Below are positions 6,811 through 64,000 of a stretch of 64,000 nt of DNA, piece after piece (position 1 is the stretch's first letter; each line of letters starts with the position of its first letter). Both the position numbers and the translations under genes were made by a program. The notes under the pieces are model-generated. The model worked only from the letters and a program-made list of their open reading frames with translations, searched no databases and was not told the DNA's origin. The DNA is from Romanomermis culicivorax. Its lineage: Eukaryota; Nematoda; Enoplea; Mermithida; Mermithidae. The stretch is from NCBI GenBank assembly GCA_963922205.1, contig CAWUHX010000077.1, positions 248,001-312,000 of the forward strand, in the 5' to 3' direction.

Positions 6811-7451
6811 AGTGGTGGCTTTTAACTCCTCATAACTGAACTTCATAGTCAGACTAGAAGAAAAGAATATCCTCCAGGTTTCTACAAAAAATTAGCAGGT
6901 TTAAGATGCTAAATAAAAGGATACCAAGAGGTAATACTTTGAATAGATCACCACCCAGAGTGGCGAGTGCTGGGAAGCTAGTTAATTTGGGAGACAGGGA
7001 TCAGCAAGGCCATGCTGCCCTGGACCCAATGATTCCAGATTAGACTCCTGCAAGGGTACAGCCATTGCAACAACAGGCAATGCATTTTGTGCCCCATTAT
7101 CAAGATGTGCCAGTAGTCTGCCCGCCAACAATTGCCATGAAACCGCAAGAGGCAGGGCTGGCGAAGCCAATTCCAGATGCTGATGGGCCCCTGCCACAAA
7201 ACATCAAAAGGTCACCACTGTGAGTCGAATTAGCAGGACCTAAACAAGATATTGTTACCCCTGAAATTTGATTAAATTTGAATGAAGTCAACCCCAAAAC
7301 CAAACGGCAATGGTTAGAAAGGATCGGACAAGATCAGGAGTGACTCAAGAAGCTGGAAAGAGCTCCAAAGATGTCCAACCAAGATTTTTGAGAGAGATAA
7401 TTTACCATGGAATCAAGGAGGTGTACCACTGCAACGAGATCAAATTGAATT
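6811..7451 (+). other. 5' leader of element 1
   Basis: About 640 bases between LTR and gag. TGGTGGCTTTTAACTCC starting at 6813 begins with TGG, as a primer-binding site should, but I could not match it to a tRNA 3' end. Minus-strand open frames here are shadows. Confidence 0.5.
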
Positions 7452-9154: not shown

Positions 9155-9159
9155 TATGA

Positions 9160-9480
9160 CATTGTAAGACATTGGCTCTCATTGACACAGGAGCTCAGTG
9201 TACAGTTATGTCAGCTAAGTTTCCGAAAGAAACTGTGGGTCCCGATTACACTGAATATCCAAGGATACTGAATGTCACTCTAGCTGATGGTAAAACAGTC
9301 CAAGCCCATAGGTATATTAAATTTAGGATGGATACCCTGTGTGGACAGTTTCCTGTGAAAGCAATTGTTATACCTGAAGCAGGTGAAAACATCATTGTAG
9401 GAACAGATTTTTGGCTCATCCTCAGGTAGGAGCCATAATAGATTTCAGAAACAGGATGATGATGCTCAACAACAGGTAAC
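9160..9480 (+). pseudogene. element 1 aspartic protease (frameshifted)
   Basis: Retroviral-type pepsin-fold protease. The catalytic triplet Asp-Thr-Gly is encoded at 9184-9192 within [12 protein letters not shown], followed by LADGKTV and the second-half motif NIIVGTDF. The frame then reaches a TAG at 9427, apparently through loss of one T in the T-run at 9410-9414. The coding pattern continues one frame over to about 9480. A TGA lies just upstream at 9157-9159, so the join to gag is also broken. Confidence 0.85.
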
Positions 9481-9481
9481 A

Positions 9482-11858
9482 ATGGATATACATGATGCCA
9501 GAGCAGCCTCAAATGAATTATGGAGAGGTCATGACCATAAGTGCTGTAGAATCTATGACAAGTGCCACCAACCAGTTCAGCCAAAGATTTGCCTCTTAAA
9601 GGTTTTGGTACCAGTAGTAAGTTTGAATCAAATCTACTTGCCTAGTGGTACTCATATACTTGTAAAAGCAAAACTTTGGGACAAGGTAGGCCAAAATTGC
9701 TTGCATGGGATTATAGTAGAGTGGGAACAAAATGAAAATAGGTTCCACACAGATAGTACTATAGTAGATGGTACTAAAAATGATTTTGTAGTTATTGTAT
9801 CTAATAGGGCAGGATCATGATGCCATTCGAAACAAAATCAAATAATTGGCTGTTATGTGATTCCTCAAATCAAGATCAACTAAAGGGGAAGATAGTTAAG
9901 AGGAGGAGAAGCTGCAAACTTGTGCAGTTCAAGCTAAGCCAGATTCAACTCTAAGTGATGAGAGAGAGAGAGAGAGAGTTCAGGGAAGCTTTGTACAGTA
10001 TGCTAGCTAAATCCAACATACCTTCTGATCAATTGGAGCAAGCTCTAAGATCTCTCACCAAATATAGAGACGTATTTAGCTTGCCTGATGATCCACCAAC
10101 CAGTACACCTTATTTGACCTGTAAAATAAATACAGGCAATGCAGCACCTGTTGCTAAATGGTATCACAGGACTGCCATTAAGTTAAGGCTGCATGTTCGT
10201 GAGCAGGTGCAAGATAGACTCAAAAAGGGTGTCATAGAACCATCAAAGTCACCTTGGGCAGCTCCTTTATATTTAGTAGGTAAGAAGGATGGTACGAAGT
10301 GACCAGTAGTGGACTTTAGGGGTATAAATGAGGTCACAAAAGATGACAAGTATCCCATTCCCAGAATAGATGACTACAAAGACTGTTTAGGAAGAGCAAA
10401 ATATTATACCACTCTGGATCTTAAATCCAGTTATTGGCAAGTGCCATTGGGGGAGGAAAGCAAGGAGAAAACTGCTTTCATATGCCAGGAAGGGCTATAT
10501 CAATTCAATGTTATGCCTTTTGGTTTAAAGAATGCCCCAGCAGAGTTCCAGTGCATGATGGAAAGAGTTTTGCACCCATATGCCTAGAAAATCTGTCTAG
10601 TCTATATAGACGATATCATTGTATTCTCAAACACATTTGAGGAACATTTGGTAAATTTAGAGCTAGTCCTGCAAGCTGTAAGAAAGGTTCAGTTGACCCT
10701 GAAGCTGGAGAAGTGTGAATTTCTCCCAGAGAAAGTCCATTTTTTGAGACATATCTTGAATTCGGATGGAGTTTCCCCAGATCCGAAAAAGGTTAAAGCC
10801 ATTATAGATTCCCCATTCCCAGAGTCTAAGAGAAACTCAAAAGATTTTTAGGAATGCTACAGTGGTGTATGAAGTTCATACCAGGTCTAGCTAAATTTGC
10901 AGAACCTTTGTACAAACGAACTAGAAAAAATAGTGTTTGGGAAGTATTGGAGGTTCATCATCAGGCTTTTCAAAGCCTAAAGGATGCATTTATCTCAGTG
11001 TCTTTTCTGCAGTACCCAGTTTTGGACACGTCTGCAGATTTTGTCCTTCAAAGGGATGCCAGAAGAACAGCACTGGGAGCAGTTCTCTACCAGGAGACCA
11101 AGTCGGAGTACTGGGCAATAGCTTATAATAGCAGAATCTTGAAAGCGGAGGAGAAAAAATGATCAGCCATGGAGAGAGAATGCCTGGCCATAGTATATGG
11201 CTTGAAGTTATACAAGCACTATCTAGTAGGTCATAGAGTAATCATTAGAACAGATCACAAGCCTTTACTTTCAATGAAGGTCAATGCGATGACCAACTGT
11301 AAGTTGAAGAGATGGTACTCCTTCCTCTCTCAGTTCAATTATAAACTAGAGTATGTGCCTGGAAAACAAAATGACATGGCAGATTTCCTTTCTAGAATGG
11401 ATGAACCAGACGATCAAATGGAAAAAATACAGCCAAAATGGGAACACATGTTCTCAGAAGATAGACGGGAGTCAAATCTAAAAGATCTGGAAGCACAAAA
11501 AAATGAGAAAACAAACCTCAAGTTAGTGAAGAAATTCAGAATTTTGACAGATCAGAATCCTGAAGACCGCACTCCATTATATCCAGAGCTGAAAAGTGAG
11601 GAATGTCAAAGGATTGACACAATTCCAAGATTCACCCAAATATATCAGGAAGATTCTGAGGGTGATCCAGAATCCATGTTGCCAGCAAACTTTTTAAATG
11701 CTATCACTACAAGGAGCATGGTGAAAGAAGTGGAAAAGAAAGAGCAGGCTGAAATTCAGCCTGATGGCAGTCAGGGTCAGGTAAGAGGAAAGGAAGGTAA
11801 TGACGAAAAAGGTGAAGAAAAAAGAGTAGCCAGGTTATATCTGGAAAAAGAAGTGTAA
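9482..11858 (+). pseudogene. element 1 reverse transcriptase / RNase H (broken)
   Basis: The region starts with a linker domain (about 9482-9820) equivalent to that preceding RT in element 2. RT follows from about 9955: the PWAAPLYLV box, VDFRGINEV, TTLDLKSSYWQVPL, LPFGL-like MPFGLKNAP, and the catalytic YIDD at 10603-10614. RNase H is at about 11040-11400, with the DHKPL box, [10 protein letters not shown] and a terminal ADFLSR. Breaks visible: TGA 10300-10302, TAG 10585-10587 just before YIDD, a frameshift near 10845-10855 and TGA 11160-11162. A charged spacer (DDQMEKIQPKWEH...) runs from about 11400 to 11858, towards the integrase. Confidence 0.93.
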
Positions 11859-12021
11859 TTCAGTTTGGTAGACCCTGGGGAAAATGAGTTGCCAAAAGGG
11901 ATAATTAGAGATGATCTCGGCCCTCTTGCAGAGAAAAGATGAGGTATTGAAACCTTATTTTGATAGATTGGGTTCAAGTGGGACAACTGAGTATCATAGT
12001 GGATTTTATATCTAGAATGAG

Positions 12022-13220
12022 GTGTTATACCGGGAAGCCAGACAGGGAGCTGATGATCATGTGGTCATTCCATCCTGTTTGAGAGACAATACTTTGCACC
12101 AGTACCATGGTCCTGTTATGATGACTCATCAAGGGTTCAAAAGAACTCTTGCCATGATTAAAAAAGGGTTCTGGTGGCCTGGAATTGAAATGGATGTCAG
12201 GCACTGGAGCAAGTTTTGTCCAGTTTGTCAAATGGCTAACCCAGGAAATGCTGAAGTTCCTCCACTGATACCGATAATTCCAGAAGGTCCTTTTGACATA
12301 GTATCAGTGGATATAGTGGGTATTTCTCCATTCAGTGAGAAGAGACCATATGTCATAGTCTTTCAGGACTATTTTACAAAGTGGGTGGAAGCTGAACTGA
12401 TCCCAGATCAGTCAGCTAGTACTGTTGTATATACTTTTCTACAAGCTATTGTACTCCATGGAGATTACCCAGTGATAGAGGACGTTGTTTTTACCTCAGA
12501 TTTAATGAAAGAAATCTGTGAGTTTTTCGTGTCAAAAAATTTACACAACAGCTTACCATCCTCTAGGAAATGGTATGGTTGAAAGATTCAATCAGACACT
12601 TATAAAGCAGCTCAGAAAAGTGGGGATTGAAGAAAGGGACAACTGGCCACGATATTTGAGAGCTGTGGTCTTTGCCTATAATGCAGCAACAGGGCAATCC
12701 CCATTTTTGTTGCTTAGAGCTCACGAGGCAACCTTCGGGTTGAACTTGTGGAAAGCATACGACATTGTAATGGCAGATATCAATGCAGAGGCTTACACAT
12801 TTGTGTTCACAAACCCTTTAGTCAACTTGTACAAGGATATTGAAAAAAATATCCAGAGTGCTGCAGATAAATCGAAAAAATACTTTAATAAAAAGTCCAA
12901 GGAACACAGGTTCAAAGAGAAGGACTGGGTTCTGCCAAAAGTTGATAAGCAGAAGAAATTAGGACTACCTTGGTCTGGTCCGTTCTTCCAACATTTCCCG
13001 AGCAGTGGAGAATGTTGTCACCATTGTTCATTGGGATAACCCACTAAATCGCCAAACTTTTTTAAGCAGCAGGTTGATAAATTTTTGTTACGAGACCACT
13101 AAGGTCTTGCCGCAAAGTGCGGAAGCCAATCAGGACGACCCAGGCAAAGAAAGTACATCACTCTCCAACATGGTGCATGCAGTTACAACTGGAGCATCAA
13201 ATCAACCACATTCATTGTGA
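12022..13220 (+). pseudogene. element 1 integrase (broken)
   Basis: Ty3-type integrase. The HHCC zinc-binding region (HQYHGPVMMTHQG ... CPVCQ) is at about 12085-12240. The first catalytic Asp is in SVDIVGISPF. The stretch holding the second Asp is damaged (reads VIEDVVFTSDLMKE, shortened against element 2). The frame shifts near 12520-12580 to [18 protein letters not shown], which has the catalytic Glu. A C-terminal basic region follows (KKYFNKKSKEHRF), then a further frame change near 13005. The missing Asp region and the shifts make it non-functional. Confidence 0.9.
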
Positions 13221-31115: not shown

Positions 31116-31772
31116 TATGGATGATATGTATTATGGATAACACTTATTATGCTTACTTGGACGATTGAGGAACGAGCTTGTTCTTTGTGTTACGATAGGT
31201 TAGCACAATTTTGGAGTAAAAAAAAGATTTAAAACATTGAACCAAAGCAAAAAAAAGTGTTCTAAAATAAGATTCAGGTATAAAGGATCACTTTTTTATA
31301 TGTTTCGTGCGCAAAAAAGTTCATGATTATTTCGGTCTCGGGATCATTCTGTTTATTACAACCAGTCCCAGATCAACAAAAACTCTGTTTGTCGTGTCAC
31401 CAATACAATAAGCCGCACAATCATGGTTGTAGAGATATACTGTCGAACTGGTTGAATCTAAGGCCTCATCATACTCAGAAAGAAGTAAAATCAATTCCGA
31501 TGATTTGATTTTTCTGATCTTCATCGCATTTGCATGCATTACCATACATTTTGCCTTGAATGACTACTATAGTGAAAAAACGAGCGCGTCTCCTGACGAC
31601 TATAAACGAAAATACAGTCATGATACGCCTTCTCCGAAGTATTCTAATTCTCAGAATACTGTACACTCGGTAATCCTAAGAACATTAATGCTTAATTATT
31701 GTTATGCTTATACCTCGGGAACTCTGGGTATTCGCGTCATCCCTCGCCATCAATCGACATTTACGCCGAAAG
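31116..31772. other. left flank of element 2, no gene seen
   Basis: AT-rich sequence without a recognised gene. The last 60 bases before the LTR are somewhat richer in G+C, as are the first 60 bases after the right LTR. Confidence 0.4.
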
Positions 31773-32299
31773 TGTTGTAGTGTGTTTTCCGCCGATTTTT
31801 CATTATTTGTCAAATTACGTCATAGGCCCGCAGGTGGCAAGTGGAGAGAGCAACGCGGACCACTGGTGGCCATCTTACTGTAGCGCACGTCGGTACGCGT
31901 GCGCTGGTCTCTCTCTAATTATTATTCGTTACGTATACTTTACGTGTATTTTTATTTTCCTTACTAGCTGTGTGCCCCGCCGGCCACCACTAGCTCGTAT
32001 TAGCCGCCTCCCACCACGCTTTTCTCGTCTTTGTTCGCCCGTGCGTGGGAGTAGATTTATTGTTGTTACTTTATTTTTCGTTTCGCCCGTCGCCTTGTCA
32101 CGTAAGTTTCGTACGTTTCTTTTATATCGTAATAAATAGGTAGGAAAAGTCTTTCCTCTCTGGTTAGTGAGAGTAGAAGGGAGACAATTAAAGAAACTAG
32201 GTTTTCTTTGATTGTTGGGGAGAAATTATTATCGTCGGGGTTTAAGTATTAGTAATTGAGTAATCGGGTAAACGTGGGCGTGGGACGCACGTACATTAA
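31773..32299 (+). repeat. 5' LTR of element 2 (identity block)
   Basis: Begins TGTTGTAGTGTGTTTTCC. Identity with 44577-45103 ends after CACGTACATTAA. If the LTR ends at the CA-type terminus ACA, the edge would be 32295. It contains no ATG. A good donor-like CAC|GTAAGTTTCG lies near 32101, which could serve subgenomic splicing. Confidence 0.9.
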
Positions 32300-34871
32300 T
32301 CAAATCATCGGCGCCGTCTCTGATCAATTCCAAGCCCAACAACTACGCGTTCAACGCGAGATTCAAGAACAAACAAAAGCAACTAACGCGCGTTTCGCCG
32401 CGCTCGCCGAGCAAATGCAACACTTGATTTCCACAACCGCCGCCGCGACGCACGCGCGTAATCCGCCTACACCAAGACCGCCGCCGGTGTCCTCACGGTT
32501 TCACGGCGAGGAAACAAGAGATGTTTATATCCCTAACGAAACTCTCCGTGAAACTGAACCGGCTCCAGTCTTTGGCAGGCTACCAAACCAAGTCAAACCC
32601 AAAGCACCGTCGACGGATACCTTATATAATAACGAATTCGCCCGCAGTACGCGCGCCGATGAAGATTTACACCGTTCCGCGCTTCAAAGACGCCCACCGC
32701 CCGCGGCAAACCAATTTGGCTTTTCAGACTATCCACCCGAGGACTATTATGAACACCCGCACCCTCGGTACGACATGCCGCGCACGTCTCATCATGAAGA
32801 AGATAGCCGCATCAAAACAATCGTCGACAATATGCATCCGTTGATAATCGACAGCGCCGCAACAAATAAACGCCTGTTACGCTTCTTCATACGACTGGAA
32901 AATGAGTTCGGCTACGACGCCTCCAATCACGTAAAGATGAGTGCCCTCCGCCGACTTACCCGCGATACGCCGAGCGACATGATCCAAGATATGACGCGGT
33001 ATGAAGACGCCAAACATTTGCTCATGTTCCAGTTGGCGCCCGATTGCAATCCGATGACTCTTAAACGCGAACTCGCGTCAATCACGCCAGAAGCCGGAGA
33101 GGAACCCGCCGCATTCCTGAGTAAGGTAATGACTTATGTACAACTATTGTATCAGCATGAAGATCAAACTTTCCGGCATAAACAAGTAATTGATACCTTT
33201 TTGACCAAAATGCCTGTTTTCTATCAACTCACAATTGGCGAACAAGCAAAGAATTTCACAAATGTTCAACAATTGGCCGACGCCGTAGCCAAAGCCCGTA
33301 GTGTCCTCAACGCAACTAAAGCCGAAATCGGAACCGCGGAACGACCCATTCTGGTAAATCAAGCCGAGCAAGATGCACCACCTCCGAAGTCGCCGCAACC
33401 GTTTGACCGCCGTTTTGAACGCCGCCGCAGCATGGACCGTCCTCAAAATCGCTACCGCGAGCGCTCTCCCTCAATGGACCGCAGGACGCAAAACCCGGCG
33501 ATGCAACCCACTAAATTCGTCTCTTTCCAACCACAAGCAATTGAGCCACCGCCGCCGCAACCACCGCGCATGGAGATGCTTCTGGAACAATTGATTCAAC
33601 GATACGACCGCGACTATGAAGAAAGAAAATCTCGACAACGCCCTGAAGAAACGATATCCAACAATAGGCAACAAAGCCCGCGCCACCCATCTCAGAACAG
33701 AGAGCCGTACGCAAATCGCTTTGACCGATCCACCAGCAGAGACCGCGCGCGCCCGATGCAACCTACAGGTCTGTGGTGCGACGCTCACAAATCCCGCACA
33801 CACAACACAGAAGATTGCGTCTGGCTCAAACGGCAAAACGCTCAACAATCAGCCCGACTTGAACCAAATCGCTCAAATTACGCCGCCCAACCACGGCAAG
33901 TTGATTTCCGAAACAATTCAAACGACGTCCGCGGACAACGTGACTGGCGACCCCGCCGCGGAGGACCGCCCCAACGTGGAGCGAACTACGCCCGCGGCGC
34001 GCGAAACCATTTCTATGAAAGTAATCCTATACAACGCCCAAATGATTTTGTTCAGAACACCTACGCCGTCTACCCGAACCACCAATTTCCGGCGCCGTGG
34101 GAACAACATATCCATTACAACGCGGTACCGGCTCCATACGTCACAACGCCAACGGATTCATCGCGCGCTAGTTCTCAATCTTCAGAAATGCAAATTACCC
34201 TACCCGCCCTTCCGGCACCAAACACCGCGCCCGTACCTGCGCTCGAAACACGCGTTAACAATCATTCAACGTCCGCGGCCAATATGGTCGTCCCATCCAA
34301 AGAAATCGCTTCCGCCGCGCCGATTGTCAGCCCCGGCATCGTCCGTTGGAACGCAACAGGCCGCGCTTTTCAAGACCCCTGTCATATTCGTTCGTCCGTT
34401 TGTCAAATTGATAATCTCACGCCATCTTCCAAATCGTTTGTTCGCAAGTACGCTTCTACGAGAGCTTTTCAAATCCCAATCAAAATTGGAGCCGTCAAAG
34501 CACACGCGCTCATCGATACAGGTGCCCAATGTTCCGTCCTATCATCAGGTTTGGTCAAACGCGCTTTCGACAAGCAATTGCTTCAACTCCCGATTTGTGG
34601 AAAAATTAAAGTAGCCGACGGCGCCTTAGTCAACGCTCACGGCCCGGTAGTTGTCACAATGGAATCCGCCTTCGGAGAGCACATGATCAAATGCGTAATT
34701 CTTGACGACGACGGAAACGATCAATTCATCATCTGAACCGATTTCCTCGCGCACCCCGATATCCACGCTATTTTAAATTTCAAAGACAATTATATCGAAA
34801 TTCAAGACGTTAAACTGCCGTTAAATCGCCTCAATCCGCCCGCAAACGGAATTGTTTCTCAACGCCGCTAA
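32256..34871 (+). CDS. Gag-protease polyprotein of element 2, interrupted by one TGA
   Basis: The frame is open from TTG 32256, just after TAA 32253-32255. The first ATG, in any frame since the LTR start, is in frame at 32415. Using codon 1 at 32256: a coiled-coil-like N-terminus (20-60), a proline-rich linker, the Gag core (about 190-365; [15 protein letters not shown] and VIDTFLTK match element 1), and an Arg/Ser-rich segment (about 385-420). A zinc knuckle C-X2-H-X4-H-X4-C follows at about 507-522 ([15 protein letters not shown]), then RGG-like repeats and a protease with Asp-Thr-Gly at 754-756. The in-frame TGA at 34734-34736 replaces the Gly expected before Thr-Asp-Phe in the second protease motif. 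The frame then stays open to TAA 34869. It could be inactivation or a readthrough site. Confidence 0.88.
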
Positions 34872-37800
34872 CGACAACGTTTTAGAAGAGATACCAGAAG
34901 ACGAACGAGTAAGTTGTTATGATGATAAATCTGATATTTTTAGCCAACCCGAAGAAATCGAAGTCGAACAACCGATACGGCAGGCTCAACCTGGTCCACA
35001 CCAACCGCCCCCTAGGCGGTTGGAGGTTACTGAGCTGGCCGAACCGATTTTTCTCGTCGCCCAAGCTTCCATTTCGATTTCGCCGCACTGCCAACAATGG
35101 GTCAAAAGTAGCGTTTTTCCCACAACATCGGCGACAGTGCCCGATGTGATCGTACAACCACTCGCCACGGATAACGTTGCCGCAGAGCTCCCAGTCGAAA
35201 CCGCAGTGGTCAACATCACCAACGGCCATTGTCCGCTCCTTTTCATCAACAATACGCCGAACAGTATCAAACTCCGACCAAATCAACTCATTGCGATGGC
35301 AAAGCACACGCTGGAGTATTCCGAAACCCACGCCGATTGTCAGATAGCAACCGCCGCCGCCGACCGCGACTTAACCGACCACGAGCCGGCCGCATTGGAC
35401 AAGTCATTCCCTGGCAACACCGCTCAACAAAAGCTGGAATACGCCCTGAACAAGATGACGGAAAAGACGTATGTTTCTACCGCGCAAAAAGAGAGAGCCC
35501 TCAGGATGCTCCGACAGCACCGCGATGTTTTCAGTCTCCCCGGCGATAAACCAACTATCACTAGCGAATTAACCGTCAGCATTGACACCGGCACGGCAAA
35601 ACCCGTTTCACGCCATTATTACCGTGCCGCAATGGAACAAAGACCGATTGTACGCCGCCACATTCAAGAAATGCTTGACAACGATTTTATCGAACCATCC
35701 CGCTCACCCTGGGCCGCACCGCTATTTTTGGTAAAGAAAAAAGACGGCTCGTGGAGACCCGTTGTTGACTACCGCGGAATCAACGATGTTACGCCGAGCG
35801 ACAAATTCCCGATCCCGCGCATCGACGATTACTTGGACGCAATGGGACACGCAAAATTCTTCACCACGCTCGACCTCAAGGCTGGGTATTGGCAAGTACC
35901 CCTCGACGTCGATTCCCGCGATAAAACAACCTTCATCTGCCAAGAAGGTTTGTTTCGATTCAAAGTTTTGCCCTTCGGCTTGAAGAACGCGCCCGCCGAA
36001 TTTCAACGGTTAATGGAACGAATCCTCCGCGCCTATATTTGGAAAATTTGCCTCGTTTACATAGACGATATTATTATTTTTTCGAATTCATTTGAAGAGC
36101 ATTTGGAACACCTTCAAATCGTTTTTGACGCCCTCCGCGCTGCCAATCTTACGCTTCCGCCCGACAAATGCGAGTTCTTGCCGCCGCAAGTCAAATTTTT
36201 GGGACATCTACTTAGCGCCCGCGGAATCGCCGCCGATCCCGAAAAAGTCAAAGCAATCGCCGAATACGAATTTCCGAAGACTAAAAAAGGTATGCAAAGT
36301 TTTTTAGGACTAGTTCAATGGTGCAAGCGATTCATCCCGAATTTGGCGTCCTTGTCCAGTCCTTTGTACGGACTCTTACGCAAAGACGCCCAATATTTCG
36401 CCACGGATGAACATTACGCCGCATTCAAAGGCATCAAGACAGCCCTTACGTCTTCGCCATTTCTCCGCTACCCCGTCTATGATGGCAAAGCTCAATTCGT
36501 TATTCAAACCGACGCTAGTACGACCGCCATCGGAGCAATTTTGTATCAAGAAAACGAGAACGATCAATGGGTCATCGCCTACAATAGTCGCGTACTCACC
36601 GATGCCGAAACCCGCTACAGTACAACTGAGCGTGAATGCCTCGCCATTGTCTACGGCTTCCGGATGTACCGCCACTATGTGTACGGCCAGAAAGTTATCG
36701 TCCGCACCGATCACAAGCCGCTCGAATGGCTCAAAGACGAAAAACACCGAAACTCACGACTACAACGCTTCGCGATCAGTCTACAAGATTACGATTACAA
36801 AGTGGAATATGTTAAAGGTAAGGATAACGCTTGTGCTGATTTTCTATCTAGGAAAGATGACCGCGACAAATGCCCGATCCAGAACGCTGAAAACTTGACC
36901 GCAAAGATCTTCCGTGAAAACTTTCACCCTGCTGGTGCAACTACGGAAGCCGACTTAACGGTACCGGAAACACGCCCAGCAGTGGCTCCACTATCCACGG
37001 AGGTCGACGCCGAAATCAACGCCATCACCCGTGCGATGACGAGAAAGACCATCAGTTCACCCACACTCTCTAATTCAATGCCTAAGGATGCCGACCACGA
37101 ACCGCCTCCGGCCGAAGCCATTACAATCGCCGCTCACGCAGAAGTTCGGAAAGCTCAAGCCGCAGATCCAGCCATAACGAAAATTGTCGCCACCCTCAAA
37201 GCAGATAACGCCGCCAAACACCCGCCGATTTTCTTCCTCGAAGATCAACTTTTATACCGGCAAATTAAAGACGTCAAGCAACTAGTCGTACCCGCCTCCA
37301 TGGTCGACCAAACTCTTCACCAATTTCACGGCGCCAAAATTTTGAATCATCAAGGGACGAATCGGACGCTAGCCGCCATTAAAGCTCACTTTTGGTGGCC
37401 CCGCATGGAAGAGGACGTTCGGGATTGGATCAAAACCTGTAAAATTTGTCAACTCACAACGCCGCGCACGTCACCGCCTCCGCCCTTGTTGCCAATTCAA
37501 CCCAAACACCCATTCGAAATCGTGGCAACCGACATCGTCAATATTTCGCCAGTAGGTGAGAAGCGTCCCTACGTTATTGTTTTTCAGGATTATTTTATGA
37601 AATTCGTATCCGCGCACCCGATACCGGATCAGAAAGCCTCAACAATAGTGGAATGTTTTATCAATAACGTCGTCCTCACGCACGGTAGCCCACTTGTACT
37701 CCTTTCCGATCAAGGTGGATGTTTTACGTCAAAACTCATGCAAGATATTTGTGAACTTCTCAAAATTCGAAAAGTCAAAACAACGGCGTACCACCCCCAG

Positions 37801-38415
37801 TGCAACGGAATGGTCGAACGTTTCAATCAAACATTGATCGCCCAACTCAAAAAGTATACCGCCGACGATCCAGACAACTGGGAGCGATACCTGCCCTACG
37901 CCGTGTTCGCTTACAACGCCACGCCGCATACAGCCACACGACATTCGCCGTTCAGTTTATTACGAGGATATGAACCGCGCATCACCTTCGACTACGATTG
38001 CGCCCGCCGCCTCACCTTGCCGCTGAATTACGACGCTTATCAACATATTCTAACGCAAGCCCAACTCAAAATGCACGAAAAGATCAAAGCTAACCTCGAT
38101 GCCGCAGCCGCCGCCAGCAAAGAATATTTTGACCGCAAAGCTCGAAGACGCGACTTCGCCGTCAACGACTTAGTTCTTTTGACCAACACGCGAAAAGCCA
38201 ACAAGATTCAACCCGACTTCATCGGGCCTTTCCTCATCACGGACGCGTCCCGCACAGCCGAAAACGTTGTTACCATCGACGCACTCGACGCACCCGGCCG
38301 CCCGCAGACCGTCTCCATAACGCGTCTAAAACCGTTCATCCCAAGACCGGCAAAGACCACTTTTGACAGCGAAGAAGGTGGACCCCGCACGCCCCACACT
38401 TCTCGCCGGCAATAG
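34825..38415 (+). CDS. Pol polyprotein of element 2: reverse transcriptase, RNase H, integrase
   Basis: The frame is open from 34825, overlapping the gag-protease frame by about 44 bases and shifted +1 (or -2) relative to it. It has no convincing ATG start, so it is probably made by frameshifting or reinitiation. Counting from TTG 34852 (1187 residues): an N-terminal linker; RT with [41 protein letters not shown] and the catalytic YIDD (403-406); RNase H with [16 protein letters not shown] and DHKPLEWL; the integrase zinc region [13 protein letters not shown] ... CKICQ (about 822-870); a catalytic triad in TDIVNIS, SDQGG and VERFNQTL (about 893, 953, 989); and a C-terminal SH3-like tail. No stop interrupts it. 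All catalytic residues are present, so it looks functional. Confidence 0.95.
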
Positions 38416-38716: not shown

Positions 38717-38924
38717 GACTAATTGGGAAAGGTTGATTTTACTCTCCATTAACATAGTGGTGTTTGTGTTGCTTTTCGTAATGATAGTGTTTGCATTTTC
38801 CTACTTTACACTTTCTTCACCTTTCAGCGGCTCATTCTTTTTACTATTTCATTTCCATCTTTCGCTTCCATCAGCAATAGTCGCATTTTCCAGCCGCTCT
38901 CAAAAATTTTATTTTTCAATATGA
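38646..38924 (+). CDS. small ORF with a transmembrane segment in element 2
   Basis: ATG 38646 opens a 92-codon frame overlapping the previous ORF in another frame. It carries a strongly hydrophobic run (LLSINIVVFVLLFVMIVFAF) long enough to span a membrane, and a second hydrophobic, Ser-rich part. It occupies the position where env sits in some Ty3/gypsy elements. It is far too short for an envelope protein and has no visible signal peptide or fusion motif. The run partly reflects T-rich DNA. Confidence 0.3.
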   Translation: MLGSVCARPFGLLPPDPGRYHSHKTNWERLILLSINIVVFVLLFVMIVFAFSYFTLSSPFSGSFFLLFHFHLSLPSAIVAFSSRSQKFYFSI

Positions 38925-39059
38925 CGACGCCGTCGACCGCATCATCCTCCACGGCCGACGACCCTCCGCCGTATCGCGAATCGATAAACGTAAACGAACG
39001 TTACGTCCGCTGGGCCGAACAGCAGCCCCACCAAAACGACTTAAGTTTCGCCTGCGACG
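38921..39059 (+). CDS. possible first exon or upstream ORF of ORF3, element 2
   Basis: ATG 38921 (after TTTTTCAAT) starts a Ser/Thr/Pro-rich and then acidic frame containing DPPPYRESINVNERY, in the same frame as the ORF3 body. It could be an exon ending at the donor-like GACG|GTATTTTC (39059/39060). The best acceptor, CCCCTCTGTAG (AG 39138-39139), would change frame; a poorer AG at 39151-39152 would keep frame. Without splicing, the frame ends at TGA 39119-39121. Confidence 0.35.
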
Positions 39060-39409
39060 GTATTTTCTCATTTTATGCTTTTGCTGCTTATACTTGCATG
39101 CTTTTGCTTGGGACCCCATGAGTTTCTCCCCCTCTGTAGTCTTGGGTCAGAGTTCCATGGTCAGCCCCCGCGATCCCGTCATCGTCAAGTTGTGGCCTTC
39201 TCAGCCCACAACCGGCCGCTGCCTTGATTTCCGCATACCGCAACTCTCGTTATCTCGCTATCGTAGCCCGATCCAGTTGTCCAAGTGCGCCCATCAAGGT
39301 GACATCGCCGCCCAAGCCAACGCCGCCTCAAAGCATGTGTACTTCTAACGAGTTGACAACACCACACCGCTTTCCTCTTCGTTCATGTTTACATCATCCT
39401 TTAAACCCC

Positions 39410-42400
39410 ATGTCGTTCATTCGACGTGGTGTCCCATGTGTCACTGATGAGTATCGCATTCGCTCTTGTTTAGAAAACAACGTCAAACGCCTAACTCGCG
39501 TCGCCGATTTAGAGTCGTGGTACATTTCCATGTACGCGCGACCCCCGAACGTCTTGCCGCCGCCGATTTTCCTTTCACCCGGAAGTTTGGGGCAGGCCTT
39601 GGCCGCCCAACCCACACCAAACTTCCGCGGCTACACGCTGGTCGGCTTTGACACCGAATCCATCTCGGCCACCGATTTCAAACAATTTCAATGCACAGTT
39701 CAAATGCCAGCCGACCCCAACGCGTCTAGCTACCCCCGCTACGTTCAACTCGCGTTTCCGAATGGCACAATGTTCGTCTTCGAAACGTTCACCGCCACCC
39801 CAGAAGACTGGACCGCGCTTTTCGCCCTAGTCGACGGCGACCACACCATCGTAGTCTCTTTCGATGGAGCCGACGACTGGGCGGGAATCTACGCGCTTCT
39901 GGGAACCCAATTTCGCACCGACCGACAAAAGAAAAACAAAGATCCCGTCGTGAAAGCAATCCACTTCGACGCGTACCGCGTCATTCGCAATATCGACATA
40001 TCTCCGTCACTGTACGAGTTGGCCCGCCGAATCGGTTTCTTTCCGGAAAAACGCACGCTCAAAGCCACAGTTTCTGCGATGTGGGCGCTAGACGTGTCAA
40101 AGCTCACTTTACGCTTTCCCCACGCTCTACGCTTTTTCAACAATCCAACAACGTCGTTTCTACAATCCGACGTCCTGGCATACGCGGCCCTCGACGCCTA
40201 TTATCCGCTGCTATTGTTCTTGGCATTTGGTCGTTACGGCTTCATCCCCGAGGTCTACAACGCGCCCGCGTTGTTTCCCCACGACTCGTTGGACGCCGCC
40301 GAAATCGATCATCTTGCCGAGTACGTCATCGCCACTTTTCACAACGTCGCGCTGTCGGATGTCTTGCCTCCCGACTACGCCAACCGGATCTACCCGACTA
40401 CGTCGCAAGTGGCCTTGCCCGCGATCATGCGAGATGAAGTTCTTTCGGCTTATAAATTCTTTATGTATGATTGCACATCGTCCGACCACGGTCGGTCTTT
40501 CTGTTTAGGAACGGTCCCCAACGGCTTCAAAGATGTCAAATCCTTGACGAGGACAACTCACCCGAAGCTTCTCCCCGTTCCGAAAGTGCCGAAAAAGAAG
40601 AAAAAGAAACAGAAAGACGAATGGAACAAGTCACCAGATGTTTCCGACGATGAAGACCCGGCTCTCAAACCACAATCGGTGTTCGACGATCCCAAACGCC
40701 TTCAAGCAGCCGTCACGTCGGCCATGAAAAGCAATCTCATCCACCGCATCATCGAGTTGCTCAACTTCCCGCTTTCACCGATATACAAGTTGGCCGTCCG
40801 CGATCGTATGCCTTACAACGATCCCAACTTGCCGCCGCTTCCCCACGAAGTCGAAGATCTTTGGACCGAACGCGTAGCTGCCGACCAACCCCTACGCGAG
40901 CGCACTTATAACGGTACCCATTATCGTTATCACCCTTCAACCTTCCTTAATTTTTTACAGATTGATGGAGAATGGTTCCGGAAGCTAACGTCTTTTATGC
41001 CGTTAGCCGCGCTCCTAGCTTCACCGTGTTCCGCCGCGGAATACGCCTGGGTCAACGACGTCCTTCTCCGCCACGCGCAATCGATGACGCCAGATACACG
41101 CGCCGTGTTCTACGAATGCATGTGGTACCGCAACGACGGCAACCCCAATTCGCTTCTCACGACTTGGATGAACCGCATTCCGGAACGCGAGCCCAGTTTT
41201 TCGGCCGACCCGAGCACGTACATATGCAACCGCTTCGCGTTACGCCCGATCGTGTTCGACGAAAACTTCCACATGGAAACGTCGGTCGAAGAAGTCGAAA
41301 TCGATGAAAATGATTATACGGCTAATCCACATAGCCGTTTCCATTTTTATTCAACGTTCATCGCGCTCATCGACCACCAAAACCGTCTTTCGTTCCCCGC
41401 GCCGGTGTATGCGTACCCCATGCCGACTACGGCTTCGGTGCACACCCTCACCGCCGAGGAACTTCTCGACCGCCCCATCGACGTTGAAGTTGAACCCGCC
41501 GACGATGAACTACTTGAAACGCCAATCTTCGATCTCAACATAGCGAAGCTGCCGCCGTCAACGGACGTGTCGGCCCTTCCTATGGTACCCGCGCCCTCCG
41601 ATATCACCGCAACCGCTACGCAAATCAACGATTTTCTGAAATTGACGCTAGACGAAATTTCCAACATCGCTCCGGCTCCGATGGACGAGTCCACACCCCT
41701 CCAACCCACTGCGATTGACTCCGAAACAACGACATCAGAACAAATGTTGACTGACATACCCGAAGAAAGTACGGTGGACCAATCCACGTCTATGGACGTC
41801 GCCTCTATGGAACCAGCCGCTGCGCCTATCACCACGGCACCCGCCGTGGATCCACGAATATATTTGGCGACGCCGGCCGTTTTGCCGGGACCTCCGCTCA
41901 TTGCTACTGTTGCCGCAGCCAGGTATAGTCTTCCCGTATGTTTTTCACAACACTTCATTTCAGCTGACAAACACGCGGCCTTAACTGCCGCACTCCTCGC
42001 GTATAATTTTCCGCCACCGCCGCCTGGTATGGTGTTCCCCGAGCATCAATGGAAAGATTTCCCCGAAGCGTTGAAAGAACGAATACAAGAAATTTTGTTG
42101 CCGCAACCGACGTTGATCGCTCCGGCCCCGCAAGTAGCACAAATGGCTCCAGCGATGGCCCAACCCGTCACGCAACCACCGGCCCCGTTACCGCCGCCGG
42201 TCATAGCGCAACCGCAAACGATCCCGCAACCGCCGCAACCAGCGATTCTACCGCCGCCGACGGCGCCTGTGGATGTCCAAACCCCACAGGCATCCAGCAC
42301 GTCCGTGCCGGCTCTAGATCGCTATGGTAATCCCATCCGAAGACCCGGTCGGTATGAACATTCGATAAAACGAAAACAACAGCTCCAGGACGAATCAGCG

Positions 42401-44158
42401 TACCGCAAATCTCACAAGACCAAAACATCGGACGAACCGAGTACACGGCGTACGCCGCCACCCAGCACTTCGCGTGCTGAGCGCGGCCGAACGCCCAGCG
42501 AGCGCACCACTCGACGCCGTGAACAACGCGATAAGCAAAGAACCCGCGAAGAAGCCGAACGCTCTTCGCACGCTACGTCAACGCCGAAACCCAAACGCGA
42601 TTCTTCCAAGACAGCAGCGTCGGCAACGTTACCGCCGCCTGCTCGCAAACCAGACAGCCACCGTTCACACCATGAGTCCCATTCTCGTGATGACCGCCAC
42701 CGTAAAGAAACGAAACAAACTCCAGCCACCGGCAGGGAAAGCCGCCAACACGAACGCCGCGATGACGCACCGCCGCATCGTACGCAGAGCGAACAAACCC
42801 GTAAGGTGCACACGACGGGCTTCTACGAAGAACATTATCGCCACAGTTTCCGCCGTTCACCTACGAAATTAACCGACTATATTAGCCCATTGCACCGAGA
42901 CGCCGAAATCCAGCGCCGCCTGGAAGCTCTAAAGAACCCGCCGAAAGACGAATTTAAAGCTCCACTCCCGCCGCCTCCTATGGACGTGGAGCCCGCAACA
43001 CCCTCGACTACGCCTATGGTAACGTCGCAGCCCCCCACGGCTCCGACAACCGCCATATCGACCACGGTAACCCACACCACGTCGCTGCCGCCTACGGCCC
43101 CGACGTCGGCTCCGGTTACTGCGGTCAGTCAGCCGCCAATGATCATCGCCACCAAACCGGTCCTTGGAGTACCGTTGCCACCAAGTTCCGCGCCAGCAAT
43201 CAAACCCCGGTTGCCTAGCGAGGCTACGCACTTGCCGAACTATACGCGATTTCGTACTACCGATAAGCCGCATACTGTTACGATTGTCACGCCGGGCTAT
43301 CCGCCACATATTGACCCGGCCGTCGAATTGTTCTCACCGCGCACGATGCACGAGATGGTGCTGATCAATTTTTTCGGGCGTCTCCGCATTCACATCATTA
43401 TGCCGGTGCACATACGCGCCACGAACGCCTCGTTGGCACTGTATCAGTATTTCCGCGACCACTACCGCCCCTCGTACGTAGAACAGCAACCACCGATCTC
43501 GCACGCCGTTGCCACGGTAATATTGAAATGGGTCGCCAGTCTTTGGGCCGAGGAGCTCGGCGTCGTTGACGCCGTTCACACCGCCCATTTGACGCTTTTC
43601 CTCTACGAAGCTCGCGGCCTGGACAATCCTTCGTGCCTGCTCCAAGCCTACAACACCGCGGTCGGACTCATCGACAGCTGGATGGCTTACCCAGACTACG
43701 CACCGTTTCCACAGCCGCCCGAACTCGCCGACGTCCGAAAAATTTATTTACAATACCATAGCGAGACGGATCGCCCCGCGCCCCTGCTGCGTCGGCACGA
43801 TTTCTCTGCCCGGTGGAATCTTTTACCACCGCGACCGTTGCCGCCAACAGGGACGCCGTCCGACAAACCGTCGTTAATCGCGACTCAGTTACCAGCGCCA
43901 GGCGTTAACCCGCTATCGCCGCTCCCGCCTCAAATGTCAACCTCGTCGTCTCGCCGCCGGGATACCTCTGACTACGGTCGATCCCGCTATTCTCGTAACT
44001 ACCGCTTTGACGGCCACGAAGATCCATACGATCCCCACGGCTACCACATCGAACGCCAACGAGAAAGAGAACGACAAAGAGAACATGAACGAGACCGCCG
44101 CGATCCGCAACGAAATCACCGTTCAGCGTCCGACACTCGTTATCGCCGCCGCCACTGA
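39410..44158 (+). CDS. ORF3 of element 2: DEDDy 3'-5' exonuclease with long disordered region
   Basis: The frame is open from 39140; I chose ATG 39410 (1582 residues). Residues about 70-285 form an RNase D/Rrp6-like exonuclease. Exo I is VGFDTES (Asp81, Glu83), Exo II is [14 protein letters not shown] (Asp155/156), and a helix region [15 protein letters not shown] precedes Exo [16 protein letters not shown] (Tyr258, Asp262). Tyr-X3-Asp marks the DEDDy class, which removes nucleotides from 3' ends of RNA or DNA using two metal ions. A basic run ([11 protein letters not shown], about 392-402) may be a nuclear signal. A folded-looking middle (about 430-680), a long Pro/Thr/Ala-rich stretch, basic Ser/Arg segments, a second folded region (about 1300-1450) and an Arg/Glu/Ser-rich tail follow. 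There are no internal stops. Possible roles are 3'-end trimming, degrading host small RNAs or proofreading; none is shown by the sequence. Confidence 0.85.
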
Positions 44159-44563: not shown

Positions 44564-44576
44564 AAGGGGGGAGGGG
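44564..44576 (+). promoter_or_regulatory. polypurine tract of element 2
   Basis: AAGGGGGGAGGGG immediately precedes the TGTTG start of the 3' LTR. This is the standard plus-strand priming site of LTR retrotransposons, and it confirms the LTR left edge. Confidence 0.9.
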
Positions 44577-45103
44577 TGTTGTAGTGTGTTTTCCGCCGAT
44601 TTTTCATTATTTGTCAAATTACGTCATAGGCCCGCAGGTGGCAAGTGGAGAGAGCAACGCGGACCACTGGTGGCCATCTTACTGTAGCGCACGTCGGTAC
44701 GCGTGCGCTGGTCTCTCTCTAATTATTATTCGTTACGTATACTTTACGTGTATTTTTATTTTCCTTACTAGCTGTGTGCCCCGCCGGCCACCACTAGCTC
44801 GTATTAGCCGCCTCCCACCACGCTTTTCTCGTCTTTGTTCGCCCGTGCGTGGGAGTAGATTTATTGTTGTTACTTTATTTTTCGTTTCGCCCGTCGCCTT
44901 GTCACGTAAGTTTCGTACGTTTCTTTTATATCGTAATAAATAGGTAGGAAAAGTCTTTCCTCTCTGGTTAGTGAGAGTAGAAGGGAGACAATTAAAGAAA
45001 CTAGGTTTTCTTTGATTGTTGGGGAGAAATTATTATCGTCGGGGTTTAAGTATTAGTAATTGAGTAATCGGGTAAACGTGGGCGTGGGACGCACGTACAT
45101 TAA
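44577..45103 (+). repeat. 3' LTR of element 2 (identity block)
   Basis: Reads identically to 31773-32299, including the first ~44 bases of the gag frame. After 45103 the sequence diverges at once into about 60 bases of G+C-rich unknown DNA and then AT-rich host DNA. Confidence 0.9.
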
Positions 45104-46141: not shown

Positions 46142-46216
46142 GGCTCGGTTAGCGCAGTTGGATAGCGCATCTGCCTTGTATGCAGAAGGTCGAGGGTTCG
46201 AGATACCCCGAACGTT
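46142..46216 (+). tRNA. tRNA-Thr(UGU)-like gene, probably degenerate
   Basis: The A box TTAGCGCAGTTGG, a perfect D stem (GCGC/GCGC) and a perfect five-base anticodon stem (TCTGC/GCAGA) enclose loop CTTGTAT, giving anticodon TGT. The B box reads GGTTCGAGATA, one base off consensus. The T stem and acceptor stem pair poorly: the 3' side CCGAACG against 5' GGCTCGG leaves mismatches. A T-run (TTATTTTT) follows as a Pol III terminator. A decayed tRNA gene or the head of a tRNA-derived SINE are both possible. Confidence 0.55.
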
Positions 46217-51299: not shown

Positions 51300-53044
51300 G
51301 CACTGCCCCCGAAGGCTCGTGGGCTCCTTTGCCGGACGGCGTACGATGTGGTAGCGTCAATTGCGATTGGCCATCACAATGGTGCGTAATAGTAAAGGGC
51401 GACAACGCACCAAATTTCAAATGTGTTGATGGTAAGACAGTCTTCGCTGACATTAAGCATGTATGCCCAACTCTGCGTAGAACTTCTCTTACCTCAAGCA
51501 GCTTTTGCCTAACCACCAACAGATAGTAAAACTAAATCGTATGCCAACATTTTTTTGCTCAAGTTGTAGACATGACTGCTACAGTGAACTTGAGAAGTGT
51601 TCTCATCGTACATGCACTACATGTAAATTCTGCTGGGTCGGATAGAAATTTTTTCCTTTCTTGATAACAAAAAGGAAGGTATTTTTACATCCAAGCAGAA
51701 TATTCTCCTATCTTTACTCGTAAAATATATGAAAATACTTGTTTCGTCAGTACTTTTTATAGTTCTTTGGAATCATGCACGCGTTGTTCAGGAAAGCCGT
51801 TAAGCTACAGTATCATTTTCATTCTTATAACGTCTTTCTCTTCTTTTTTCTCATTTTTCTTCATCATCTTCTTGATCTATGCTGAGGGGCCGAATCTCAA
51901 AAATCTTCTAAGGGTCAATCAAAGTCTGCTGAAGGTTTAGATCTCCAAACCCCCCCCCCCCCCGGGTGCATGCTTGGTGCTCACAATGAAGGTTTATTAT
52001 TTGCATGAGCGTCATCTTAGCTTTCCTGCATTGGTTTGATGAAGCCTAACAGTATTCTTTGTAGAGCCAAATTGTGAAAACAGATTAGATAAACTCCATA
52101 AAAGCTTGCGGTTTCTAAAATTTTTGTCAACCAGCTCACGTTTCATCAATGATACTATTTTTAGTACTTCCGACATGTAAAAACGCTATGGGCGTTACAC
52201 CTGCCCCTGTAACGTCACCGGACCCACCGACGGGCGCCGAGGGCGGTACGAACCGGCTTCCCGGACCTACGAGCGGCCAATCGCCCCAGCCGACTGATAA
52301 TGGTTGCGTTGACATGCATCCGTTTTGTTGTTACTGGGCGCAAAATGGTGAATGCGACAAGAACATATACTTTATGCGGGTGGGGTGCCAAAAGTCTTGC
52401 GGCACGTGCGGATGCCGTGGTAAGTGTGGTGACACATATTGTTTGAATAACTTGTAGGTTTCTATAAGATAGGTAATTTGGTGACCATCATGTTTTATAG
52501 GAGCAGCTTGATTGATCTAGATTGAGTCGATCTATTGACTATGTGAAAAGTGATTGCTTCACTTGGAAGTTTTACTTTTCTTTAATTTGGTAAAATTTCC
52601 CAACATTCCAATAAGAAAAGTCTCAAATTGGGATAATCCTTATCGGTTACTAATTTACTGGATCGATTGAACTATTCTATGGAACGCGTTGATTTTTATA
52701 ATTGGCTGCTACAATTGTACAAATCACACATCCATGATTATGAATTTTCTGCACAGTCCAATCACTAACTGATGTAGTCACGTATCATATCAACTAATAA
52801 TCCAATTTGTGCTGTTGGGTTGATATTTTGTTTATTTTTAGTCGAAAAAGCTGAAACTTGTGCGGTAAATTTGAACGTCGCCGATTGCAAGATTGTTCGA
52901 GATTCTAGTAAGTGTTCCATTTGAAGACGCAACTGTAAGAGTTTTCACGCGTTAATATTTCATTACAGTGATCCTTGCAGTTCGTGCGCAAATGAATTTC
53001 TAAAGTCTGTTGGGAAATGCCCCGATGCTGCAGAAAAAAGATAA
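51300..53044 (+). CDS. secreted cysteine-rich ShKT-domain gene (first of three), 5' exon missing
   Basis: Exons: 51300-51431 (after TTTTTACAG; donor GATG|GTAAGAC), 52165-52419 (after CTATTTTTAG; donor CGTG|GTAAGTG), 52842-52907 or -52911, and 52969-53044. The first three internal exons are multiples of three and phase 1-1. Exon 1 of this set has four Cys (VRCGSVNCDWPSQWC); exon 2 has a Pro/Thr/Gly-rich linker and a ShKT module (CVDMHPFCCYWAQNGEC then a Met-x-x-x-Cys and SCGTC ending) with two extra Cys. The last exon fits its cysteine-rich reading (DPCSSCANEF) only if a weak donor AA|GTGTTC is used instead of A|GTAAGTG. ShKT modules are common in secreted nematode proteins; the true function is unknown. 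Exon 1 with a signal peptide was not found. Confidence 0.7.
51605..51980 (+). repeat. dispersed repeat, copy 2, in an intron
   Basis: Partner of 30743-31115. It ends in a run of 13-14 C followed by GGGTGC. Confidence 0.7.
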
Positions 53045-61397: not shown

Positions 61398-64000
61398 TTT
61401 TATTTTTTTTATTTTTTTAATAATTTATTAGGAGAAAAAAAACAAAACAGCACTCATGCACTTTAACACCAGGAGAAAAAAGAAAAAGGAAACATTATTC
61501 ATAATATGATATTTTTTATTGACTTTGTGTGGCCTCAGTGGCCGTATTCCACACAGGTAGCTTTCGATAAAATTCATACTTACATTCAGTTTATTATTTC
61601 GTTTGAATATTTTTGCCTGTGTTTTGACCGAATTTATCCAGGCTGAATAGTTTGGTATTTTACCACTTTTTCTTGTTTTATAAATAAAAAACTTGGCCAT
61701 AATCAGTAGAACATTAATTATTTGAAGTTCTAGCGGATCATACCCATTTAATATTCCAAAGATTACATCCACTCGTGAGACTTTTATTGGTATAAGCATT
61801 TTTACTTTAAGTGAGTCCTCAAACTGCTTCCAAAAGAAGCCATTTGTCTTACATACAAACAGCGTGTGTAGTATATCATCATTTTGGTTGTCGTCGCAAA
61901 GGTTGCATCTACTTGATTCACTAATTTTATACTCATGCAGTAAATTTTGTGTCACCAAAATATTATGCAGAATTTTGAACTGAAATTGATTATATTTATC
62001 GCTTAATTCAAGATTATATAAATTTTTCCAAATCTTCTCAAAGTTTATGAGTTTGGTGGCATTTAGTTTTGACATCCATGCCTTTTCACCTGTTGGAGTT
62101 TCCAGCTTTGCCTTTATCATGCACTCTTTGATCTTCTCTAAATCCTTCTTATCCCATACTTGAACTTCAAACTCACATTCACTCTTTGAATTGTAAGTTT
62201 TGACTGATTGTTTCCAATTTTTTGGAATTGAGCTGATTACCTTTGCATAATCAAACCAGGAAATTTTACATCCCTTTATCATCATATAATCATACTTCTC
62301 TAATTTTCATCAAACCAGTGGAACATATAGTTGAACTGTGTGCCCTGAAATGATTTTATAAACAAGGATTTCTTGCCACTTATCACAAATCTGTTATTAT
62401 TTATTTCTTGTACCATTACTTGACATGGGATAATGATACCATAAATGTTACTACTCAGGACATATTTTACCGTTTCGAGAACTTGATTATAGAATGGTGG
62501 TAAACTAACAGCCAGAAGGCTTGTGCAAAAATTTGATTGTATTACATTTTCCAGGCTGCCAATTCATTCAAGGTTTTTTACTCCAATTTTGCACCATTTG
62601 CCTGGGTTATTCAGCATTCTCAGTAGCCATTTTGCTTTGAGTGTCATTGCTATAGCCTCAAAGTCTGGCATTTTAATTCTACCATGTATGTACTCTTGAA
62701 TCATCACTGTCTGTTTGATTTTGGGCATTGATCCATTCCAAAGAAAATTTTGTAGCATTCCTGTCAATTTTTTGATAATAATTGGTTCAACTACCAGGTT
62801 GATCATACTGTAGGTAAGTTTAGATGATATAAGATAGTTCCAAATCACTATTTTTCTGTAGAAGGTTAAATTTCTTTTTTGCCATTTATCACATTCTTTT
62901 TGGCATTCTATAATTTTTTCACCAAAGTTTTTTCTAGCATTTTTTGCCTATCATATGAGAAAAACACTCCTAGTACTTTTATTGTGTCTTCTATTTCACA
63001 CCTTGCGATATACCCCTTTTTTGTTTTGTTGTATCTTAGACCAAGCATCTGAGTTTTTGCTATATTCATCTTTAAGCCTGAGGCCTTTGAGAACATTTTA
63101 ATTAACTTCATAGCATGCAAAAATCCTGCTCATCTTTTACCAGTAACATAGTGTCATCAGCATACATAGAGACTTTGTTTCTTTGATCATATATATTCAG
63201 TCCCTCAAATTCTTTGGAGTCCCTGAGTGATATCGCCATGTATTCCATTGCACATATGAATAGGTATGGTGAGATTAGACATCCTTGTCTTACTCCTCTA
63301 CTCAACTTAAAACTTTTGGTGCTGTATCCCATATTGGTTACAACAGCCTCAGAGTTTTTGTACAGTGTTTCTATCCAAGAGCAGAACCTTTCAGCCATGT
63401 TAAAATTTCTCAACACTTTAATCATAAAGGTTCTGTCTAGGAAGTCAAAAGCCTTTTCTATGTCTAAAGCTACTAGATAGCCCTTTTCTTTTTTGGATTC
63501 ATAATGTTCAACAATGTCTAAGATATATCTGATATTTTCCTCTATGTATCTATCAGACATGAAGCCTTTTTGATCTTCATGTATCAACTTTTTGAGAGAT
63601 AATTTCATACGATTTGCTAAAGTTTTAGCAAAGATCTTATAGTCAACATTTGTTAATGATATATGTCTCCAGTTTGCCAAGTTTTGTGTATCTTTCCCAC
63701 TTTTAGGCAACAGAGAAATAACACTTCGTCTTTGAGATCCAGACATATGCCCCATCTCTAAATTTGATTTCGAGCAGTTAATAAATGGATCCCTTATCAG
63801 GTCCCAATAACCTTTATAAAACTCAACTGTTAAACCATCATCACCTCGTGTTTTCCCATTCTTCATTGTGTCAAGTGTATCCTTCAACTCTCCTTCTATT
63901 ATGTCTATTTCTAGGGGATTTTTTCCCCATCTGTTAATTTTGGAGTATTGAGTTGCTCAACTGCATTGAAAAATATTCGCTGGCTCTCAGTTTTGTTACT
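61398..64000 (-). mobile_element. L1/Tx1-like LINE, 3' part
   Basis: A non-LTR retrotransposon on the minus strand. It enters from beyond the right window edge and ends in an A-rich tail (TATTAAAAAAATAAAAAAAA type) at about 61398-61425, with an AATAAA nearby. The 3' UTR is almost absent: the ORF stop lies just before the tail. Its end is about 140 bases past the stop codon of the third cysteine-rich gene, in convergent orientation. Confidence 0.88.
61428..64000 (-). pseudogene. LINE ORF2: reverse transcriptase and C-terminal zinc region, broken
   Basis: RT motifs read on the minus strand: NGKTRGDDGLTVEFYK, NWRHISLTNVDYKIFAK, DQKGF, the palm LVALDIEKAFDF, RGVRQGCLISPYLF and the catalytic YADD (63153-63164). 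Then come the thumb region, LWNGSMPKIK, and a C-terminal zinc motif CNLC ... HTLFVC (about 61855-61910), typical of L1/Tx1-type LINEs. Pieces: 63108 to about 63917, 62908-63120, 62564-62848 and 61428-62285. They are separated by frameshifts near 63917 (an A-run) and 63112, and by gaps with stops around 62850-62905 and 62290-62560. Any endonuclease would lie outside the window. Confidence 0.9.

Follow-up and report, generated by a model that had tools for sequence, protein, structure and literature searches.

The stretch analysed here (64,000 nucleotides of Romanomermis culicivorax contig CAWUHX010000077.1, positions 248,001 to 312,000; hereafter the window) contains a Ty3/gypsy long terminal repeat (LTR) retrotransposon whose third open reading frame (ORF3), located downstream of pol and upstream of the 3' LTR, very probably encodes a DEDDy-type 3'-5' exonuclease domain, as judged from motifs, profile comparison and structural modelling. 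ORF3 is under strong purifying selection in two lineages of the element and is better read as a predicted two-exon gene. We tentatively propose, at somewhat less than even chances, that this exonuclease gene serves to trim RNA 3' ends and thereby to escape small-RNA silencing. Exonuclease ORFs in retroelements are already known from bdelloid rotifers (PMC5408684; statements given with a PMC number refer to the excerpted text of that source). Here, the same kind of gene is found in a large and recent family, with a ratio of nonsynonymous to synonymous differences (pN/pS) of approximately 0.1 in two divergent lineages, which indicates that ORF3 is needed by the element. The host is a roundworm that kills mosquitoes, and its genome contains hundreds of copies of the family. 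As this genome has been assembled from long reads, the use of a 3'-5' exonuclease by a retrotransposon can be tested directly in this host.

The exonuclease-like domain of ORF3

The domain and its motifs are located as follows:

39623..40264, + strand: DEDDy-like exonuclease domain, approximately ORF3 residues 97-310
39650..39658, + strand: Exo I, codons of Asp106 and Glu108
39875..39877, + strand: Exo II, codon of Asp181, the second D of DDW
40181..40195, + strand: Exo III, codons of Tyr283 to Asp287 (YAALD)

The three Exo motifs reported in a first-pass annotation of this DNA were recovered in the order FDTE (39647-39658), FDGADDW (39860-39880) and YAALD (40181-40195). In the alignment columns, Asp-x-Glu, Asp and Tyr-x3-Asp are all present in order, with an additional Asp conserved ahead of Exo III. 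Among the matches listed by Foldseek, the nearest solved fold was that of Nibbler, named in the PDB as a mut-7 homolog. The profile-profile score was above those of 200 of 200 shuffles, at a probability of approximately 52%.

Several results weigh against this assignment. The search with PF01612 suggested in the first-pass annotation remained below the cut-off (E 0.2, 11.9 bits compared to 23.6), and DUF4350 outscored PF01612 on the same stretch (E 0.0079). The lineage 2 domain was matched by no curated DEDDy profile, a sequence search of the PDB gave no chain for the domain, and neither the single domain nor the family profile had a significant DEDDy match in Pfam, NCBIfam, PHROGs or PDB. The hhalign probability was 52-56% for the domain compared to 98% for true members, and two of the 150 sequences in one shuffle set outscored the domain, in each case through a degenerate alignment (4 and 7 columns). 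Structure prediction, also proposed earlier, gave a mixed outcome: in addition to the Nibbler-like fold described above, AlphaFold reached a predicted local distance difference test score (pLDDT) of 39 from the family rows alone, so the good model leans on rows of known DEDDy proteins. Polymerase exonuclease domains tied with Nibbler in the fold comparison, the archaeal ones within 1 Z unit (among the matches listed), and therefore the fold neither decides the DEDDy subfamily of ORF3 nor chooses RNA over DNA. Finally, decayed gene models lose the catalytic acids about as often as other acidic residues, which is as expected after insertion. A peptide-pattern search of viral contigs found no relative of ORF3 or pol.

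Copies, lineages and selection

The R. culicivorax genome was searched over 359,112,060 bases in 595 contigs. A query with the exonuclease domain matched 150 places 95-100% identical to it (the best of 3166 candidates), here termed lineage 1, and 144 of the 150 were without a stop in the stretch by our own count. The more distant relative P0115, used as a query, gave 126 places among 3457 candidates, which make up lineage 2. Protein searches, each limited to scoring the 7,995-7,997 candidates with the most words in common, yielded 54 and 115 relatives in 124 distinct clusters, all labelled Romanomermis culicivorax; the full-length ORF3 query found no relatives among 7990 scored candidates, whereas a 497-residue piece did.

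Compared with the window copy, lineage 2 is 62% identical in pol, 31% in ORF3 and 43% in the exonuclease domain. Its ORF3 frame comprises 1273 codons. All 10 loci fetched have ORF3 beside pol, and in seven of them the gag and pol matches share one open frame. The third ORF thus recurs next to pol in other copies of the family, as the first-pass annotation would have it.

For lineage 1, 20 ORF3 stretches were taken from the 150 places, selected to have long open frames and to cover a range of identities; for lineage 2, 10 stretches were taken from the 126 places, all with the 1273-codon frame. The comparison of copies that had been proposed earlier gave ratios of approximately 0.1 in both lineages. 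The pooled lineage 1 pN/pS (21 copies) was 0.07 for the exonuclease domain, 0.09 for residues 311-760, 0.20 for residues 761-1290 and 0.15 for residues 1291-1600. In lineage 2 (10 copies), it was 0.11 for the exonuclease domain and 0.04-0.12 for the other regions, and gag-pol (6 copies) gave 0.05-0.08. The first set had been recruited by the exonuclease domain, which could bias the ratio low; nine copies recruited via the C-terminal region, and by our reading outside that list, gave 0.08 for the exonuclease domain. Of the nine, three have one stop in this domain, and small gaps occur in several; the set therefore includes copies starting to decay.

The catalytic residues D, E, D, Y and D are present in 21 of 21 lineage 1 and 10 of 10 lineage 2 open copies, as well as in eight of the nine C-terminally recruited copies, the ninth having a gap at the Glu codon. 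The Asn found at Exo II of P0115 was rejected as a lineage feature: since all 10 open lineage 2 copies have Asp there, it is ascribed to decay of the P0115 copy. The low pN/pS and the kept catalytic residues therefore indicate that ORF3 functions as part of the element for as long as the element is active. The DEDDy-like exonuclease domain in a third ORF, first noted in a single copy, is thus supported; it recurs beside pol in many copies and is under strong purifying selection.

Two ORF3 frame lengths are common among young lineage 1 copies, approximately 1560-1582 and 1644-1676 codons, possibly representing two recently active subfamilies. Two UniProt gene models of R. culicivorax join ORF3 pieces with other sequence: P0035 contains an Astacin domain (E 9.6e-12), and P0024, named Autophagy protein 5, gave no Pfam match at E 0.01 or better. 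Both fusions are likely annotation artefacts.

ORF3 as a predicted two-exon gene

The predicted gene comprises the following parts:

38921..39059, + strand: ORF3 exon 1 (predicted), with the junction as in gene model P0012 and an ATG in 20/20 sampled copies
39060..39473, + strand: ORF3 intron, GT-AG (predicted), with conserved GT and AG and no coding-like codon usage in the frame assumed earlier
39474..44158, + strand: ORF3 exon 2, open for 1560 codons, codon usage correlated with that of pol at r 0.79, pN/pS 0.07-0.20 by region
40583..40615, + strand: lysine run
42473..44155, + strand: C-terminal part of ORF3, two Arg/Ser- or Arg/Glu-rich stretches around a globular-looking stretch

The first-pass annotation described a single giant ORF at 39140-44158, and this frame is indeed open for 1672 codons. 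However, the codon usage of its first 334 bases (39140-39473) is unlike that of the element (r 0.13 compared with pol), and therefore the earlier start was replaced by an exon/intron model. In exon 2, the coding frame correlates with pol at r 0.79 and the other two frames at 0.29 and 0.38; the longest open run in 300 dinucleotide shuffles was 382 codons, compared to 1560 for exon 2. UniProt gene model P0012, from another copy, fuses a segment resembling 38921-39059 straight to a segment starting at 39474. The 20 sampled copies have the ATG in 20, the GT in 19 and the AG in 20 cases, and each of the 10 lineage 2 loci has a matching exon 1 approximately 280 bases ahead of exon 2. The predicted spliced protein would comprise 1607 amino acids. 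An intron of the third gene kept in two lineages implies controlled splicing, as in retroviruses, provided that the predicted splicing takes place.

The lysine run resembles a nuclear localisation signal. The Arg/Ser- or Arg/Glu-rich stretches begin near 42473 and 44054, and the globular-looking stretch between them (43148-43900) has no Pfam match. An env-like identity of ORF3 was set aside: on hydropathy alone, the protein has one 19-residue peak above 1.6 (1.72, residues 280-298), and this sole peak is the Exo III helix.

The element and the state of the window copy

The remaining parts of the element are:

31772..32299, + strand: 5' LTR, 528 positions identical to 44576-45103
32256..34736, + strand: gag-protease frame, with Asp_protease_2 at its C-terminal end
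34825..38415, + strand: pol, comprising reverse transcriptase (RT), RNase H and integrase (RVT_1, RT_RNaseH, Integrase_H2C2, rve)
44576..45103, + strand: 3' LTR, 528 positions identical to 31772-32299

The paired LTRs and the domain order protease, RT, RNase H, integrase identify the element as a Ty3/gypsy LTR retrotransposon. In Pfam, RVT_1 matched pol with E 1.1e-38, and Asp_protease_2 matched the gag-protease frame with E 3.1e-4, slightly under the Pfam cut-off. The 5' LTR likely starts with the TG at 31773, and the gag frame begins within this LTR. By eye, no clear target-site duplication was seen at either end of the element, the exact LTR end being uncertain, and no primer-binding site was recognised in the element.

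The observed/expected CpG ratio is approximately 1.5 in the LTRs, gag, pol and ORF3 of the element, the measured parts spanning 1.2-1.6 apart from the intron (0.98). The two flanks, by comparison, have ratios of 0.69 and 0.91, and an old Ty3 copy elsewhere in the window (7449-13142) has 0.21. This contrast indicates a recent insertion in a genome whose old copies lose CpG and, together with the 528 identical LTR positions, agrees with the young age assigned to the element at the outset. Despite its identical LTRs, the window copy is not wholly intact: the protease frame stops early and pol continues in a different frame (34600-34900), which breaks the protease-pol junction. Both sides of this junction are present in four of eight fetched stretches from other copies, all four open in one frame; one further stretch has a single side and three missed the junction. 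Probably, the window copy was inserted recently with the help of other copies, or else its sequence contains an assembly error.

Possible roles of the exonuclease

It is likely that the exonuclease helps the element persist. By analogy with env in other elements, a spliced RNA would give rise to the ORF3 protein, while the full-length unspliced RNA would serve gag-pol synthesis and packaging. The lysine-rich and Arg/Ser-rich stretches suggest contact with RNA and may keep the protein bound to it, perhaps in the nucleus. The exonuclease could shorten host small interfering RNAs (siRNAs) or their source RNAs, and might thereby delay CpG methylation of new copies. The choice of RNA trimming is based on Nibbler as the nearest fold, on the lysine and Arg/Ser stretches and on the CpG loss in the old Ty3 copy. 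An anti-silencing role taken by itself is possible, though we regard it as doubtful, and the more specific proposal, a Nibbler-like retrotransposon enzyme produced from spliced RNA which erodes the siRNAs that would methylate the element, is more doubtful still. If true, a silencing suppressor would explain the amplification of the family in a DNA-methylating host without PIWI-interacting RNAs.

R. culicivorax is described as having neither 5'-triphosphate (22G-type) small RNAs nor PIWI (PMC4323106) and as having DNA methylation (PMC4323106, PMC8821070); in its v2 long-read assembly, transposable elements account for 289 of 359 Mb (PMC10879605). A MUT-7 pathway of the C. elegans type is therefore not the obvious target in this host, which weakens the link to MUT-7 drawn in the first-pass annotation, although the nearest solved fold is that of Nibbler. 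Dicer-type siRNAs, shown in Trichinella (PMC4323106), would be a more obvious target.

About as likely as the silencing role is a function in the element's own cycle, namely maturation of RNA 3' ends or trimming of cDNA ends before integration, with no part in silencing. The constraint on ORF3 resembles that on gag-pol in lineage 2, as for a replication factor, and for the rotifer ORFs Rodriguez et al. suggested that they process the 3' ends of element RNA (PMC5408684). However, the window also contains an older, related Ty3 copy with no trace of ORF3 (tblastn, both lineages), so replication in this Ty3 group does not always depend on ORF3; the point is a weak one, as this copy is decayed.

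Two further functions are less probable. ORF3 could be a scaffold or RNA-binding protein using the fold for binding, as in Maelstrom-like proteins, with catalysis beside the point. The exonuclease domain makes up only approximately 220 of 1607 residues, other parts of ORF3 are constrained too, and catalytically dead, RNA-binding DEDD proteins are named in PMC5408684; yet all 31 open copies examined, from two divergent lineages, retain the five active-site residues, and we consider this function unlikely. Proofreading of reverse transcription, in which mismatched 3' ends left by the element's RT are removed, is rather improbable, as ORF3 is separate from pol and would be made from its own predicted spliced RNA, and the sampled young copies differ by 0.15 at synonymous sites, which indirectly suggests no special fidelity. 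A chance likeness of the motifs, in what would be an orphan protein, is very improbable: the curated profiles below cut-off, the lack of a PDB chain by sequence and the failed family-only folding would fit it, but the shuffle controls, the extra Asp before Exo III and the conservation across lineages argue for a DEDDy exonuclease.

Relation to known systems

The statement in the first-pass annotation that no such element is known is not supported: DEDDy ORFs were described by Rodriguez, Kenefick and Arkhipova (2017, PMC5408684) in bdelloid rotifer LTR elements of the Juno and Vesta groups and in Athena Terminons. In rotifer LTR elements a DEDDy ORF3 was gained at least twice (PMC5408684), and a DnaQ-like 3'-5' exonuclease is counted among the well-known accessory domains of LTR elements (PMC6338049); the terms exonuclease, DnaQ and DEDD are all absent from PMC5348765, which we take for the 2017 paper by Ustyantsev that PMC6338049 cites. 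Within the excerpted open-licence literature, we found no report of a DEDDy-carrying LTR element in nematodes.

Juno1/Juno2 and Vesta2/Vesta5 likewise have a DEDDy exonuclease ORF3 downstream of pol, but they differ from the R. culicivorax element in host phylum (bdelloid rotifers) and in a dUTPase between protease and RT (PMC5408684), for which the gag-protease and pol frames gave no Pfam family match up to E 1. The rotifer ORFs have the motif DEED, evolve without significant departure from neutrality and show no clear benefit, in contrast to DEDD plus Y and a pN/pS of approximately 0.1 in R. culicivorax; compared by description, they also differ from the predicted spliced ORF3 of 1607 residues (PMC5408684). 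Athena-type Penelope-like Terminons of bdelloids also have a DEDDy 3' exonuclease accessory ORF, but they are telomeric, lack LTRs, use another RT class and reach up to 40 kb (PMC6431247, PMC5408684). Dada DNA transposons of Laccaria and Ectocarpus bear a DEDDy exonuclease domain too, inside the DDE transposase and not as a separate retroelement ORF (PMC3706591). Nibbler and MUT-7, unlike the element's ORF3, are host genes.

Other features of the window

The old, broken Ty3/gypsy copy at 7449-13142 shares 35-59% identity with the young element across its pol pieces, and its surroundings gave no direct repeats of at least 60 bases. Fragments of an element resembling a long interspersed nuclear element lie on the minus strand at 61428-63956 (RVT_1, E 1.3e-30, and zf-RVT). 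An ORF with a ShK domain (52119-52457; PF01549, E 3.8e-7) is likely part of a host gene, and a transfer RNA gene, tRNA-Thr (tgt), is predicted at 46142-46215, approximately 1 kb downstream of the 3' LTR.

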